DNA of 42,216 nt. Source: a virus. Where the stretch lies: the IMG/VR virus record IMGVR_UViG_3300024520_000165, positions 1-42,216 of that record; one strand, 5' to 3'. The translations under genes were made by a program, and so were the position numbers. Numbering within the stretch: position 1 is the first letter of the stretch; each line of letters opens with the position of its first letter. This document shows, piece after piece, positions 26,101 to 31,820 of the stretch. The notes under the pieces are model-generated. The model was not told the origin of the DNA, ran no database searches, and worked only from the letters and a program-made list of their open reading frames with translations.

Positions 26101-26577
26101 ATGCCCCGTCTCATCATCCTGCTTGCTCTGCTCTCCGTCTTCTTCGCGCTTCCAGGCAGCGCCGTCGATGGTGGTGCGTGCGACTCCGACATCGCACCGC
26201 CCGCCGGCTCGATCTGCGTCCAGCTCTGCGATGGCAAGGCTGCGGGTGCTGGCACGTGCGCTGCCTACGGGATCGGACGCGAAGAAGCCACGCTCGTGCT
26301 CGAGATGGAGGACATGACGAACGCCTGCACCGATGCCGGCGGTCCGAAGTTCCACTTCCGCACCTCACCTCGAAGCGACGGGGACGGATCCACGGCAGGC
26401 AAGGAGTGGTACGACCTGGCCGGCTCGACCGTCACGTTGGATGCCACCACCAACCGGATCGTCATCGACATGCAGTCCGCGCAGATCGACGCCTGGCTCC
26501 ACACCGAGATGGACGCAGCGTTCGACACCAACTGCGCCGAGGTGGACGTGAGGCTCTACCGCCTCCAGAAGAGGTAG
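26101..26577 (+). CDS. Exported six-cysteine hypothetical protein
   Basis: A 158-residue protein with a signal peptide (LIILLALLSVFFALPGSA, cleavage near Ala21) and cysteines at 27, 39, 43, 53, 76 and 145. An AGGAGG ribosome-binding site precedes ATG. The mature part begins Cys-rich and then looks like a small beta-rich domain (SKEWYDLAGSTVTLD-type alternation). It lies nine bases after the fibre gene and opens the exported cassette. Fibre-linked function, envelope modification and superinfection exclusion are all possible; nothing decides between them. Confidence 0.72.
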   Translation: MPRLIILLALLSVFFALPGSAVDGGACDSDIAPPAGSICVQLCDGKAAGAGTCAAYGIGREEATLVLEMEDMTNACTDAGGPKFHFRTSPRSDGDGSTAGKEWYDLAGSTVTLDATTNRIVIDMQSAQIDAWLHTEMDAAFDTNCAEVDVRLYRLQKR

Positions 26578-26579
26578 CG

Positions 26580-27854
26580 ATGCGGCTCATCCTCCTGCTC
26601 ATCATCGCCGCCCTCTGCATGGGAACGGGGTTCGTGGGGAGCAAGGGCAGCCACACTGGTGGCAAGCCCGCGAACCTCTACGCCGTGACCTACAACCCCT
26701 ATGCGGGTGTCGACCTCACGACTGCGAACCGGCAGAAGACCTCCATCCACAGCCACCCCGAAGACACGGCCGCCGACTACGACGCTGCGGGGTACGAGGC
26801 AATGACGTGGTCCCACTACAGCGGCGGCTACTCGACAGGCGGTGGGCCTTGCGTGTGCAAGGGATGGTGCAACGGAAGGGCCTGGCCGGCCGAAGACAAC
26901 GCCATCTCGAACGCGCCCGCCATCAGCGGCATGACGAACCTGCTGTTCTACATCCTGGGCAGCGAGGAAACAGGACTCAATGCGGTCGGAGGTGGCAACT
27001 CCCACACCTACTCCCTCTTCATGGAGGAGTACATCATGGGCCCGGGCTGCCCGACCTGTAACTCAGGCGGTCCACTCGGCATCGTCGCCACATGCAACCC
27101 CACCATCGACCCTGCCAACGTGTACGTCGGCAACACCTCGAACGGCATGACGCTCGACCTGCTCGACACCGTCAAAGAGGTGGACCCTTCCGCCTTCTTG
27201 ATGATCGCCCACCCCACCAGCGTGATCGGGGCCTACACGAACCTCACCCAAGTCGGTGGCATCGCGATCTACAACAACCTCTACGGGTTGCAGGACGAGT
27301 TCAACGCCGACACCGTCTTTCAGGACGCCTTCCGCGTAGCGTGGGACGCTGTGCTCTCGACCTTCTCGCCCAAGATCTGGGGCATCTCGAGCAACGACCA
27401 CAAGGGGCCAAGCCTCCCACTCGTAGGATCTACACCGCCCTACCCCGTCATCACCACCGCCAACCGAGACGCCGGCTACATCGTGGTGCTCTCGCCGGGC
27501 ACCACCTACGCGGAGTGGGAGACATCCTTCAGAGCCGGAGCCTTCTTCTCCATGAAGGATGCTCAGTTCCCCAAGGAGGGCGGGCCAAACGTCGAGACCA
27601 TCACGGTCACCGACACCACGATCAGCCTCACCACCACGGACGACGACGAGACGCTGACGTGGCGAGCCAACAACGGTGAGATCCTCGACACAGACGTGGG
27701 TCCGGCCGGCTTCTCGTTCGACCTCTCCGCCCTGGCCCACCGCCCGGACTACACCTACGTGCGCGCCACGCTGGTCGACGCGCAGGGGCGCAAGACCTGG
27801 GTGCAGCCCTTCTCGGTCCAGACCGTGGCCCCGGGCACGAGGCACATCCGATGA
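26580..27854 (+). CDS. Exported PHP-type metallohydrolase (CehA/McbA-like)
   Basis: A 424-residue protein. After a signal peptide (residues 1-18) the PHP-like pattern appears. RQKTSIHSHPE carries the HxH pair (His57, His59), and GYEAMTWSHY supplies His79. LGSEET has an acidic residue, MIAHPTS gives a His near 209, and SSNDHKG a Asp-His pair near 273. The C-terminal part (about 330-424) is an Ig-like beta domain ending in VRATLVDAQGRKTWVQPF, as in secreted CehA/McbA-type PHP proteins. Those hydrolyse phosphate or carbamate esters using two or three metals. A substrate cannot be inferred. ATG 26580 overlaps nothing; AGAGGT lies upstream. Confidence 0.75.
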   Translation: MRLILLLIIAALCMGTGFVGSKGSHTGGKPANLYAVTYNPYAGVDLTTANRQKTSIHSHPEDTAADYDAAGYEAMTWSHYSGGYSTGGGPCVCKGWCNGRAWPAEDNAISNAPAISGMTNLLFYILGSEETGLNAVGGGNSHTYSLFMEEYIMGPGCPTCNSGGPLGIVATCNPTIDPANVYVGNTSNGMTLDLLDTVKEVDPSAFLMIAHPTSVIGAYTNLTQVGGIAIYNNLYGLQDEFNADTVFQDAFRVAWDAVLSTFSPKIWGISSNDHKGPSLPLVGSTPPYPVITTANRDAGYIVVLSPGTTYAEWETSFRAGAFFSMKDAQFPKEGGPNVETITVTDTTISLTTTDDDETLTWRANNGEILDTDVGPAGFSFDLSALAHRPDYTYVRATLVDAQGRKTWVQPFSVQTVAPGTRHIR

Positions 27855-28333
27855 AACGACTGGCCCTCATCGCCCTCGTCCTGCTGCTGGTGGGCGGAAC
27901 CCGCTTCATCCCGCAGCAGCCACGCCACAGCGAGGAGCTCTACACCTACCGCAACGCTCCCGTCTACGATGGCTTCTGCGCGCTCCAGTCCAGCGCCCAA
28001 CACATCGCAGTCTGGCGTGCGTGCAGCGACAACCGGGACACCCGCTACCGCTGGCCTCGCTCCGCCACCATCACCCACATCGGGTTCCGCATCCGTACTG
28101 CGTTCCCCGCTGGTGGCGGTTGCATCTTCAACCTCGACGTGAACGATGCGCTCCAGTACACCACGGCTGCGCTCACCAGCGCTTCGGGAACCTGGGTGGA
28201 GTTCGTTCTCCCCACCCCGGTCACGATCGCGAAGGGTGACATCACCACCGTCGAAGCCCTCAACGGGGGCGGCGAGACCTGCACCGACAACGTGGCGTGG
28301 GTGGCTCCCGCCTTCTACGGGACGTTCCAATGA
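27851..28333 (+). CDS. Exported protein with one four-Cys beta domain
   Basis: A 160-residue protein. A signal peptide (MKRLALIALVLLLVGG) is followed by one domain with Cys43, Cys58, Cys91 and Cys144 (gaps 15, 33, 53). The gaps are identical to those of the second domain of the next gene and close to the first. The body alternates in beta fashion (ATITHIGFRIRTAFPAGG, GTWVEFVLPTPVTIAKGD), like small receptor- or sugar-binding beta-sandwiches. The ATG lies in an ATGA overlap with the PHP gene. It is likely exported and oxidised in the periplasm. Function is unknown. Confidence 0.75.
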   Translation: MKRLALIALVLLLVGGTRFIPQQPRHSEELYTYRNAPVYDGFCALQSSAQHIAVWRACSDNRDTRYRWPRSATITHIGFRIRTAFPAGGGCIFNLDVNDALQYTTAALTSASGTWVEFVLPTPVTIAKGDITTVEALNGGGETCTDNVAWVAPAFYGTFQ

Positions 28334-29292
28334 AGCACGTCAGCATCCTCCTGGTCTTGCTCCTCTGCCTGCTTGGGGTCACCCGTTCGATCCCCGCCAC
28401 CGACCCCGGCCCCACCGTGGTAGTCCCTTGGGCCACCACGACCGTGGATCTCGACGGCGAGTGCGTTGGTGCTCCCTACATCACCGAGTTCGGCAGCATC
28501 TCCGATGCCTGCTCGGGTGCATCGGCACAACAGTTCCACCAGCACACCCTCGCGCGCAGCATCGTGGTCACTGAAGGCACCGCGCACGTGGGCTACACGG
28601 GCAGCGCCGGCTACGACTGCTCGGTCGTGCTCCAGACAGGCGTGACGCCCTCGGCCCATGCCGACTGGATCCCGATCTACGTCGACGGACTCGATGGCAC
28701 ACTGCACTCACAGCCCCAGCCCAACATCTTCCTACCTGCGGGCACCACGCTCACCATGCGGGTGGACAGCGGAGGGGCCGGATGCGCAGGTGCCACCGAC
28801 CCGACTCTTCGGGTGTCGCTGCTCGGCTACGAGGTGGACGACCAGTGGGAAGCGACGCGCCGCCTGCCTCCCTCGACGCAGCTTCGCAGCTACCAGTGGG
28901 CCAGGACGACGCAGAACAACAACAACGCCGACTGCCACCTCCACCGCGAGCACACCGGGAACTACTGGCATCAGGTCTGCAACGGGGCGAACGGCACGAA
29001 GGTGTGGTTCCGAGACACGTTCACCATCACGGGCCTGATCGCTGCCGTCTCGTACCCCAGCACCTCGCCGTGGCAGTGCGACTACGGGCTGCGGGTCAAC
29101 AACGTGGCGGTCGGCACCATCCTCAACCTCCCCACCGACCCGGCAGCAGGAACGATCCACTACCAGGCGCAGCCCAACATCGTCGTCACGCCCTCCGACT
29201 ATCTCGAGGTGCGAGACGAAGCGATCGGGACCGGATGCCGCAACGGAGCAGGCCCTCATCCCGACAACCAGCTCACAGTGCTGGGCTACTGA
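28330..29292 (+). CDS. Exported protein with two tandem four-Cys beta domains
   Basis: A 320-residue protein with a signal peptide (MKHVSILLVLLLCLLG). Two copies of the same domain follow. The first has Cys45, 61, 97 and 152 (gaps 16, 36, 55). The second has Cys202, 217, 250 and 303 (gaps 15, 33, 53). GTLHSQPQPNI (123-133) and GTIHYQAQPNI (274-284) are equivalent, and both copies end in LGY. The gene arose by duplication together with its neighbour; even the leader ends look alike (GTRFIP versus VTRSIP). Start is in an ATGA overlap. Function is unknown. Confidence 0.78.
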   Translation: MKHVSILLVLLLCLLGVTRSIPATDPGPTVVVPWATTTVDLDGECVGAPYITEFGSISDACSGASAQQFHQHTLARSIVVTEGTAHVGYTGSAGYDCSVVLQTGVTPSAHADWIPIYVDGLDGTLHSQPQPNIFLPAGTTLTMRVDSGGAGCAGATDPTLRVSLLGYEVDDQWEATRRLPPSTQLRSYQWARTTQNNNNADCHLHREHTGNYWHQVCNGANGTKVWFRDTFTITGLIAAVSYPSTSPWQCDYGLRVNNVAVGTILNLPTDPAAGTIHYQAQPNIVVTPSDYLEVRDEAIGTGCRNGAGPHPDNQLTVLGY

Positions 29293-29867
29293 TGGTGAAG
29301 CACCCGCATCTCGAGCTGTTCCACATCTTCGTCGAGTTGGTCTACGAGCTCGGCGCAGACTACGACGGGTCGGTCACGAGCTGGGGTCGGACCACCACCC
29401 GCAACACCAAGGTGAAGGGACACGTCTCGTCCTACCACCTGTGGCGGCGAGGCGCACTCGCTGTCGATCTGGTATTCGACAACCCGCAGGTCGCCCTCAA
29501 GGCGGCGGAGGTCGCGCGAGAGTGGGGCCTCGAGATCGAACTGGCGGACGACCACCTCCACGTGGAGCTGGATCCTCGCCACTGGAAGGGAGACAAAGCG
29601 ATGAGTCAGAAGACAGTGCTTGGCCAGTCGGTCGGAGCCACACCCGAAGGACGAGACGCCACGGCAGCAGTGCCGGGCGCGACACGGGATGCCGTCATTG
29701 CCGCCTTGGGTGGTTGGGTAGCGGCTGCGGTGATGGTGAAGACGGGGAGTCCCGAGCTGGCACACGCTGCCGATGCTGCCTTGCAGGGATGGGTGCCCCA
29801 GATCCTCGGCATCGTGTTCGGTGGCTTGACGTTGTTCCGCAAGAGCGTCGTCAACCAGATCAAGTAG
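29292..29867 (+). CDS. M15-like peptidase endolysin fused to membrane tail
   Basis: A 191-residue protein. Residues 1-100 resemble M15-type peptidoglycan peptidases: VSSYHLWRRGALAVDL carries a metal-ligand His49 and Asp59, and DDHLHVEL gives His88/His90. The His-to-Asp gap is wider than the usual SxHxxGxAxD. From residue about 120 there are two hydrophobic segments (VIAALGGWVAAAVMV and WVPQILGIVFGGLTLF), unusual for an endolysin and more like a small holin. ATG overlaps the previous stop (TGATG). It would cut cell-wall cross-links at lysis. Confidence 0.72.
   Translation: MVKHPHLELFHIFVELVYELGADYDGSVTSWGRTTTRNTKVKGHVSSYHLWRRGALAVDLVFDNPQVALKAAEVAREWGLEIELADDHLHVELDPRHWKGDKAMSQKTVLGQSVGATPEGRDATAAVPGATRDAVIAALGGWVAAAVMVKTGSPELAHAADAALQGWVPQILGIVFGGLTLFRKSVVNQIK
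29601..29867 (+). other. Possible internal translation start giving an 88-residue holin-like protein
   Basis: In-frame ATG 29601 within the endolysin gene has GGGAG eleven bases upstream. It would yield just the membrane part: a short polar head, two hydrophobic helices and a basic tail (FRKSVVNQIK), a plausible class II holin. No other holin candidate lies nearby. If used, one gene would give both the enzyme and the pore. Confidence 0.4.
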
Positions 29868-29892: not shown

Positions 29893-30342
29893 ATGCCCAC
29901 AGCAGCAGAGTCAGAGCAGTCGACGACGGGCGCGCACACCATCAGCGATATCGCACAGGACGAGGCGTACATCCACAACCTCAAGCGGCTGGTGGAAGAG
30001 TTCATGGCGCTCGGCTTGGAGAGCGCACGCAACTCGCAGTCCCTCGCCAACCGGGTGGCGAACAACGCCGTCTCGCATGACGAAGAGCTACGCAAGCTCT
30101 CCGTTCAGTCGCTCACCAACTCGGTGAGCACCACGAACATGACGGACAAGCAGGCGATCCGACACGCGGACCTCGCCATCGACCGTCAGTGGAACGTGGA
30201 TGAGCAGGGTCAGATGGCGACGATCGGTGCCGCCGTTCTCTCCGACATGGCGAAGCGCACGTTCGGCACGACCGAGATGGCCGAGATCGTGCGTGGCGTC
30301 GTCGCTTCCGAGCTCGCCAACATGGCGAAGGCTGGCAAGTAG
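29893..30342 (+). CDS. Helical hypothetical protein in lysis region
   Basis: A 149-residue, acidic, helix-rich protein with a good AGGGAGG ribosome-binding site. It has no signal or membrane segment. Blocks such as DEAYIHNLKRLVEEFMALGLESARNSQSLANR suggest an amphipathic coiled coil. It stands between the endolysin and the phospholipase-like lipoprotein. No family is recognised; a virion-associated or lysis-timing role is possible. Confidence 0.65.
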   Translation: MPTAAESEQSTTGAHTISDIAQDEAYIHNLKRLVEEFMALGLESARNSQSLANRVANNAVSHDEELRKLSVQSLTNSVSTTNMTDKQAIRHADLAIDRQWNVDEQGQMATIGAAVLSDMAKRTFGTTEMAEIVRGVVASELANMAKAGK

Positions 30343-30344
30343 CG

Positions 30345-30728
30345 GTGAGTCGTGGGTGGGTGGGAGGGGTACTCTCACTCGTCCTGCTCGTCTCCTGTCA
30401 GTGCGCGACTGGCGTTGGACACTGGTGGGAGGCGAGCGACACCGTGCTCATGGTGGGGGCAGGCGACGGGCAGTGCTCGAAGTCCCCGGACATCGCAGTC
30501 CATTGCTGCCTGACCCACGACCTGGCCTACGCACGCTCACCCGATCGCAGCGAGCAGTCCCGCTTCATCGCTGATGCGGAACTGCTCGCTTGCTTCGCGT
30601 ACTCGGGTGTGCCCGAGGCCGTGGCCTCCACCTACTACGCAGCGGTGAGGCAGTACGGCCAGGAGTCGTGGGAGCGGCACTCTACTTCAGCTTCAGGTTC
30701 CTCTTCTTCCGCAGACGGAAGCCCTTGA
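30345..30728 (+). CDS. Lipoprotein with phospholipase A2-like domain
   Basis: A 127-residue protein from GTG, two bases after the previous stop. Residues 5-18 form a lipoprotein signal with lipobox LVSC (Cys18). The mature part holds GDGQCS, then HCCLTHDLAY, with the phospholipase A2-type His58-Asp59 dyad, Cys54/Cys55 and Tyr62, followed by FIADAELLACF with a second Asp (77). This arrangement matches the CxxHDxxY core and distal Asp of secreted and parvoviral phospholipase A2 folds. It might attack the outer membrane during lysis, taking the place of a spanin; no spanin is visible. The tail overlaps the convergent gene by 47 bases. Confidence 0.65.
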   Translation: MSRGWVGGVLSLVLLVSCQCATGVGHWWEASDTVLMVGAGDGQCSKSPDIAVHCCLTHDLAYARSPDRSEQSRFIADAELLACFAYSGVPEAVASTYYAAVRQYGQESWERHSTSASGSSSSADGSP

Positions 30729-31194
30729 CCACCTGACCCAGCTTCAACGCTGCCTTCGCATCGGCGATCTTCGGAGCGTATGTGGTCTTCAACCACTGCC
30801 CTTCGACCAGCTCATTGAGCGGGCGGCCTTCATCCAGACTCTTCTGGATCTCGGGCGTCAGCTCACACACCTCGCTCTTCGTCCACTTCAGCTCGGCGGT
30901 GGGATCGCTGTACGCCTCGCCAGGCTCGACACGCGCAGTGATGCACGCCTCGATCCAGGCAGCCCGGCGCTCGTGGATCTTCGCACGCTCAGTGAGCTCC
31001 TTGGCCGCTTCCTTGATCCCCTTGGCCTCGGCCTCCTCGCCCTTCTTGTACCGGATCAGCTCGAGGATGAGCGTCTCCTTCTCCATCTCCAGCTTGGACA
31101 GGTAGTCGGCAGCCTCGGGCTGGATCTCCCCATACTCATCCACCTCTTGCGCGAGGATCCTCTCGATCTCGTCACTCACATAAAACAGCTTCAC
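30682..31194 (-). CDS. Siphovirus Gp157-like protein
   Basis: A 170-residue, charged, helical protein. The N-terminus (VSDEIERILAQEVDEYGEI), the LEMEKETLILELIRYKKGEEAEAKGIKEAAKELTER-type coil, and the late VKGFRLRKKRN segment fit the Gp157 family, found in phages next to recombination and single-strand annealing genes. The GTG start lies in a GTGA overlap with the nuclease gene, with AGGAGG upstream. It is the last gene of the recombination operon. The biochemical role of the family is not established. Confidence 0.7.
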   Translation of the reverse strand: MKLFYVSDEIERILAQEVDEYGEIQPEAADYLSKLEMEKETLILELIRYKKGEEAEAKGIKEAAKELTERAKIHERRAAWIEACITARVEPGEAYSDPTAELKWTKSEVCELTPEIQKSLDEGRPLNELVEGQWLKTTYAPKIADAKAALKLGQVVKGFRLRKKRNLKLK

Positions 31195-31820
31195 GCTACC
31201 TCCTGTCTTCGCTTCAAGCATTCGATGCAGCCCCGCTCCTTGCAGGGCCACGTCCCCCCACACCAAGGGCAGCGCAGGCCCGCGCCCCCGCTTGGCTGGG
31301 GTGCGGTCATGCCTGCCCGCATCAGATCGACGCTAGGCCAGAGCCACTTCGTGTCCATCACGATGCTCTCGACCTTGCGCTCCTGTACGTCCACGCGCTC
31401 CTCGAGCTCGCCGTGTGCTGCGAACGCACGTCGGTCGGCGATACCCACCAGCCCCACCATGCTGCTCTTCTTGAAGAAGCTGGCGAACGCAACGAGATCC
31501 CACTCCTCGACTGTGGTCCACGGGATCTTCACCTTCTTCGGGTTGCGGCTCGTCTTCACCTCGCACCACACCCCAGTCCGAAGCTGGAGATCTGCGGGAA
31601 GGTGATGGTCTCCTCCCCTCCCAGGGTTTTGATACCAAGGCACGCCAAACCAGCGCGCCCAACTCACCTCCCCGCAGATCCCGATGGCGTTGAGCAAGAC
31701 GAAGTCGTCCTTCACGACGGAGTCATTGATGCCCCTCGCCAGCTTCGTAGTCGTGCGGTGCTTGGCGTGTGCCCAGATCCACCGCTTGTCCTCGCTCGTC
31801 ATGCGGATCCGGGCGTCCAT
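31191..31820 (-). CDS. PD-(D/E)XK-type nuclease with C-terminal zinc motif
   Basis: A 209-residue protein. The restriction-nuclease-like core has Glu51 (GEVSWARWFG), Asp71 or Asp77 (GGDHHLPADLQL) and the E-x-K pair Glu87/Lys89 in WCEVKTSR. The C-terminus has CPWCGGTWPCKERGCIEC, likely one zinc site. It lies between the Rad52-like and Gp157-like genes, so it probably acts as the resecting exonuclease that feeds the annealing protein; a Holliday-junction or structure-specific role is the alternative. The start is in a one-base TGATG overlap. Confidence 0.72.
   Translation of the reverse strand: MDARIRMTSEDKRWIWAHAKHRTTTKLARGINDSVVKDDFVLLNAIGICGEVSWARWFGVPWYQNPGRGGDHHLPADLQLRTGVWCEVKTSRNPKKVKIPWTTVEEWDLVAFASFFKKSSMVGLVGIADRRAFAAHGELEERVDVQERKVESIVMDTKWLWPSVDLMRAGMTAPQPSGGAGLRCPWCGGTWPCKERGCIECLKRRQEVA

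Follow-up and report, generated by a model that had tools for sequence, protein, structure and literature searches.

A predicted phospholipase A2-type lipoprotein near the endolysin of an HTVC010P-related phage and its possible role in lysis

How a tailed phage opens the outer membrane when its genome carries no recognisable spanin was left as a question by a survey in which this was the case for approximately 13% of phage genomes (PMC6139136). The question is raised again by a small open reading frame (ORF) near the endolysin of virus record IMGVR_UViG_3300024520_000165, the 42,216 bases of which are the whole stretch of DNA analysed here (the window). The first-pass annotation proposed that this ORF encodes a phospholipase A2 (PLA2)-like lipoprotein that could replace spanins. 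Judged from its sequence, the phage is a podovirus-type relative of Pelagibacter phage HTVC010P, with 38 to 41% identity in the major capsid protein, 33 to 36% identity in tail tubular protein B, and further matches in the terminase, connector and tail proteins. The features of the locus that bear on the question are the following.

29292 to 29867, plus strand: M15-peptidase-like endolysin with a C-terminal holin-like part (two hydrophobic segments) in one frame, from weak HMM matches
29601 to 29867, plus strand: possible separate holin starting at an internal ATG of the frame, preceded by a strong Shine-Dalgarno sequence, AAGGGAG
29893 to 30342, plus strand: 149-aa gene between the endolysin and the PLA2-like gene, from the ORF list
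30345 to 30728, plus strand: PLA2-like lipoprotein ORF, 127 aa, GTG start, from the ORF list, PHROGs and profile search
30345 to 30398, plus strand: predicted signal peptide and lipobox, MSRGWVGGVLSLVLLVS followed by C18, with Gln as the +2 residue, from the sequence and lipobox scan
30465 to 30491, plus strand: putative Ca2+-loop segment D41-G-Q-C44-S-K-S-P-D49, which pairs with DGCSKSPD in the PLA2 of Tuber borchii (4aup)
30504 to 30530, plus strand: CCxxHDxxY predicted catalytic helix (C54, C55, H58, D59, Y62), from alignment and profile
30573 to 30575, plus strand: D77 (in RFIAD), predicted partner of the His-Asp dyad, from alignment and profile
30682 to 31266, minus strand: convergent Gp157-like gene (PF05565), from a Pfam match

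The rightward block ends with the endolysin/hydrophobic frame, the 149-aa gene and the PLA2-like ORF, which is the final gene of the block because the convergent Gp157-like gene comes next; beyond it lie leftward genes of recombination and replication type. The endolysin frame scored E=0.18 against PF08291, below the cut-off, and E=0.017 against the endolysin family phrog_894. In HTVC010P the endolysin gp37 and the hydrophobic gp38 are separate genes, whereas in the window the same order is contained in one frame. One message from this frame may give both the fusion and, from the internal ATG, a separate holin. The ORF had been placed directly after the endolysin, which proved incorrect: since the endolysin frame stops at 29867 and the 149-aa gene follows, the ORF is near the endolysin and not immediately behind it. 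For the intervening gene, a transmembrane (TM) segment, a lipobox and a convincing family match were not found by TM and lipobox scans, Pfam and PHROGs. The GTG start of the PLA2-like ORF is 2 nt past the stop of this gene, and the two are probably translationally coupled. A homologue of the PLA2-like ORF was not found in HTVC010P or in Baldr, both HTVC010P-like relatives. Elsewhere in the late region, the genes at 26101 to 26577, 27851 to 28333 and 28330 to 29292 have signal-peptide-like N-termini, which is unusual in a phage tail region; a significant family match was not found for 26101 to 26577 in PHROGs, nor for 28297 to 29292 in Pfam and PHROGs.

The product of the PLA2-like ORF reads MSRGWVGGVLSLVLLVSC up to the lipobox cysteine and continues as QCATGVGHWWEASDTVLMVGAGDGQCSKSPDIAVHCCLTHDLAYARSPDRSEQSRFIADAELLACFAYSGVPEAVASTYYAAVRQYGQESW and a Ser-rich tail. 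The LVSC lipobox noticed at first reading is present as L15-V16-S17-C18, behind a positively charged n-region (R3) and an uncharged h-region (VLSLVLLVS), as predicted for a lipoprotein from its sequence. A six-frame lipobox scan of the whole 42 kb gave this ORF as the only convincing lipoprotein. The proposed HCCLTHDLAY core with a distal Asp is likewise there, as residues 53 to 62 and D77.

Pfam and NCBIfam gave zero matches for the protein, including none to PF09056 (Phospholip_A2_3), whose cut-off of 29.4 bits exceeds the 16.7 bits reached by the relative L008, and none to PF07087 (DUF1353); among PDB sequences the ORF by itself reached a PLA2 at E=0.55 only. In PHROGs it matched phrog_6098, a family of unknown function (residues 51 to 113), and phrog_1158 (E=9.9e-6), whose Erwinia phage member matches Pfam DUF1353 at 9.5e-18, this being the only link to DUF1353 and an indirect one. 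Close relatives of the PLA2-like, endolysin, capsid and tail proteins of the window were not found by peptide-pattern search of IMG/VR. A tblastn search of the phage collection with the PLA2-like protein gave weak matches only, yet led to relatives in Pseudomonas and Erwinia phages; matches in the helicase of phage nickie were set aside as chance.

With relatives gathered from Pseudomonas phages, IMG/VR and bacterial genomes, a profile of 16 of them (A5) gave four matches among all PDB sequences, every one a secreted PLA2 (4aup, E=2.2e-5; 8k1w, 4.2e-4; 7ygk, 0.039; 1faz, 0.2). The HD and DGCS segments align in these matches, and H58-D59 and D77 fall opposite the catalytic residues of the secreted enzymes. 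BLASTP against Tuber PLA2 gave 31% identity over 85 positions (single-pair E=3e-7), pairing GQCSKSPD with DGCSKSPD and the C-terminal STYYAAVRQYG with NTYYDAVRTFG. In the alignment of relatives Cys44, CC54-55, His58, Asp59, Tyr62, Leu80, Cys83 and Gly105 do not vary, while Asp41 and Asp77 are almost fully conserved. The conservation of Cys54-55, His58, Asp59 and Tyr62 arises partly by construction, because these residues were required both in the motif scan and at the extraction step. Asp41, Cys44 and Asp77, absent from the DNA motif used to gather the viral relatives, are retained in 63/63, 64/64 and 63/64 unique domains, respectively. This retention, together with the phrog_6098 match (E=8.6e-9) and a score of E=1e-9 against an HMM built without the ORF's own sequence, indicates that the PLA2 resemblance is more than chance. 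Cys44 probably forms a disulfide with Cys55, by analogy with the group XIV enzymes; Cys20, once considered the equivalent of the relatives' conserved cysteine, was dropped when the addition of bacterial relatives identified Cys44 in that role. The predicted identity as a PLA2-type lipoprotein is thus strongly indicated by homology, and the protein is likely catalytic.

The AlphaFold model is confident in its core only (residues about 51 to 100, pLDDT about 90). Two PLA2s rank first for this core in a Foldseek search of the PDB, and VIA-align placed 8k1w, 7ygk and 4aup at Z 6.0 to 6.9 with rmsd of 2.0 to 3.1, values that are only moderate for a helical model; some unrelated helical chains equal them. 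Among viral proteins the best fold match bears the name phospholipase A2; DUF1353 proteins and densovirus VP1 rank lower. The structure search advised in the first-pass annotation therefore put PLA2s at the top without setting them apart from unrelated helical chains; the predicted fold is consistent with a PLA2 and not decisive. Taken with the PDB profile matches and the conserved residues, it lends good support to the PLA2-type core that had been claimed.

The closest characterised proteins are the group XIV secreted PLA2s (Streptomyces violaceoruber PLA2, 1faz/1lwb; Tuber borchii TbSP1, 4aup), which share with the window protein the DGCSKSPD-type segment, the C-x-x-H-D-x-x-Y helix, the second Asp and the terminal YYxAVRxxG motif. 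In contrast with them, the window protein is shorter, has an extra Cys at position 54, lies below the PF09056 threshold, and is a phage product with a predicted lipid anchor where they are plainly secreted. More remote is TtaP, the DUF1353 protein of the typhoid toxin islet, a biochemically proven PLA2 with the active site His70/Asp71/Asp85 and inactive when Asp85 is mutated; its authors expect PLA2 function in other DUF1353 proteins, and the domains fused to DUF1353 include a lysozyme domain (PMC11525133). The likeness here consists of the His-Asp pair and second Asp, the phage relatives and the phrog_1158 match of the window protein (1e-5), whereas TtaP has neither a signal peptide nor structural Cys residues and the window protein has no PF07087 match. 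The small phage proteins of phrog_6098, a family matched by the window protein and by 15/15 relatives in A5, differ in another way: the members first found are mostly 80 aa long, have no lipobox and lie among tail genes, while the window protein adds a signal peptide and lipobox. This family, listed as unknown, gains a likely function.

A PLA2 of the window type in a phage lysis cassette was not found in the literature searched. The nearest proposal is for Wolbachia phage WO, a putative lytic cassette with a patatin-type PLA2, which resembles the present locus in placing a phospholipase beside a holin-like gene, but patatin is an unrelated enzyme, the endolysin is missing there, and the cassette is likewise a prediction (PMC9203015).

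Support for a lysis role came from the genes that neighbour other family members. A DNA-motif scan of IMG/VR for CCxxHDxxYWxG, blind to neighbouring genes, gave 28 stretches, and an HMM that excluded the window confirmed 26 of them as family. A stand-alone endolysin was detected in seven virus records, and in four of them (L027, L073, L074 and L076) the PLA2-like gene is 100 to 270 bp downstream of it. The order is Amidase_2 endolysin, PLA2-like gene and hydrophobic holin-like protein in L027 (also in L083); M15 endolysin, PLA2-like gene and possible lipoprotein in L074; GH19-type endolysin and PLA2-like gene in L076; and Rz-like, Rz1-like, holin-like, M15 endolysin, 74-aa ORF and PLA2-like gene in L073. 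The gene is distant from the endolysin in L008, L026 and L075, and it has the terminase and small membrane proteins nearby in L078 and L084. Finding 4/7 within two gene slots downstream has P of about 5e-6 under a simple uniform gene-position model (0.7 kb per gene), which expects far less than one, with a small n and with neighbours annotated by eye before HMM confirmation. Endolysin counts are lower limits, given that endolysins outside the searched families are missed and that the PF01510 genome search missed the L027 amidase found by hmmscan. That the gene turns up next to endolysins time and again, in viral contigs that are unrelated to one another, supports a lysis role and makes it the best reading. 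L067, considered as a second viral lipoprotein PLA2, was dropped, as it has no standard start codon upstream of the signal sequence.

We thus lean, if narrowly, towards the ORF encoding an exported, lipid-anchored, Ca2+-dependent PLA2-type enzyme that acts as a late lysis factor and belongs to a broad bacterial and phage family, of which the group XIV secreted PLA2s are distant relatives and DUF1353 a more remote one. The protein would be made late, after the endolysin/holin-like frame, exported by Sec and lipidated at Cys18, by which its mature domain would face the periplasm. The +2 lipoprotein sorting rule is known from E. coli, and if the host obeys it the anchor would sit in the outer membrane. 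The His58-Asp77 dyad would cut sn-2 acyl chains of envelope phospholipids, while the Asp41 loop and Asp59 bind Ca2+, and the resulting lysophospholipids and fatty acids would weaken the membranes, so that the outer membrane fails more readily after cleavage of the wall by the endolysin. Activity, location, timing and effect on lysis are all inferred.

A stronger form of the lysis-factor reading is that the lipoprotein alone provides the outer-membrane step of Rz/Rz1 or of a u-spanin, and the likelihoods given to the two consequently overlap. Like spanins, the protein is a small lipoprotein near the endolysin with a proposed outer-membrane step; unlike them, it has an enzyme-like globular core. 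The earlier statement that no i-spanin/o-spanin pair is visible holds for lipobox and TM scans and for two Rz-type PHROG families across the window, although spanin sequences change rapidly, part of the genome may be missing from the record, and the absence of a spanin is hard to prove. Neither L074 nor L076 gave an Rz-type match in these two families, and the one match in L027 is weak (E=0.0014) and comes from a search that also picks up most control genomes. However, L073 carries an overlapping Rz/Rz1-type pair and the PLA2-like gene in one record; in L008 and L075 an Rz-type match adjoins the endolysin, with the PLA2-like gene far off. Moreover, a family member was not found in RcapMu, BPP-1, VP93 and 16-3 (first 50 of 60 kb), which are listed as spanin-less (PMC6139136). 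The proposed replacement of spanins is therefore only partly supported, with the window, L074 and L076 in its favour: given the L073 pair and the spanin-less phages without the family, the enzyme would be no more than one of several solutions, and its gene can occur together with spanin genes. A true spanin substitute is in our estimation doubtful, and that a lipid-anchored PLA2 constitutes a third, enzymatic breach of the outer membrane for tailed phages without spanins remains a tentative and rather doubtful idea. Recurring in lysis cassettes, such a PLA2 is nevertheless a concrete candidate for this step in phages without a recognisable spanin. That the protein is instead an o-spanin-like lipoprotein with a coincidental PLA2 resemblance is very improbable, for although its place and anchor fit an o-spanin, profile, fold and residues all point to the PLA2 family, the protein is by reading neither proline-rich nor coiled-coil, and neither a C-terminal TM nor an Rz-type i-spanin partner was found, a diverged i-spanin being possible.

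The PLA2-like domain is not specific to lysis, since phrog_6098 matches occur in 25/274 sampled Gammaproteobacteria (about 9%), many with a signal peptide or lipobox by reading, which places lipid-anchored PLA2-like proteins outside phages too; in the Alphaproteobacteria sample the count is 4/385. Phage lipoproteins are known exclusion factors. These observations would suit an accessory lipoprotein of host origin, an envelope PLA2 acquired from bacteria, that alters the envelope of the infected cell (superinfection exclusion being one example) and has no role in lysis. We regard this as unlikely, because the ORF ends the late block one gene past the endolysin, the family recurs right behind endolysins in four other contigs, and in a tree the window clusters with the small phage phrog_6098 type and not with the bacterial lipoproteins (local support 0.94), a hint only from a short domain and a poorly supported tree. 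Several phrog_6098 members have tail or baseplate genes as neighbours, phrog_1158 carries the label tail assembly, and densovirus VP1 turns up in the fold search, all of which would fit a virion- or tail-associated enzyme used at entry, in the manner of the parvovirus VP1 PLA2 domain. The signal peptide and lipobox of the window copy would, however, export the protein rather than pack it, and the tail-cluster members were seen without them, which makes a virion enzyme quite improbable here. Among Gammaproteobacteria, L032, L033, L042, L043 and L045 are encoded on the chromosome and combine this PLA2-like domain with a lipobox-like N-terminus; NCBIfam matches were not found for L032, L033 and L042.

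Two further observations concern the viral members of the family. In L062 (4845 to 5258) the PLA2-like ORF lies between two ORFs that by eye resemble parts of a terminase large subunit. In L058, L060, L064, L068, L070 and similar contigs a TGA interrupts the reading frame of the family member at one common position, which suggests TGA recoding in this phage group or a shared nonsense codon; reading it as Trp in L068 restores the conserved C-terminus FRWGFGWKWP.
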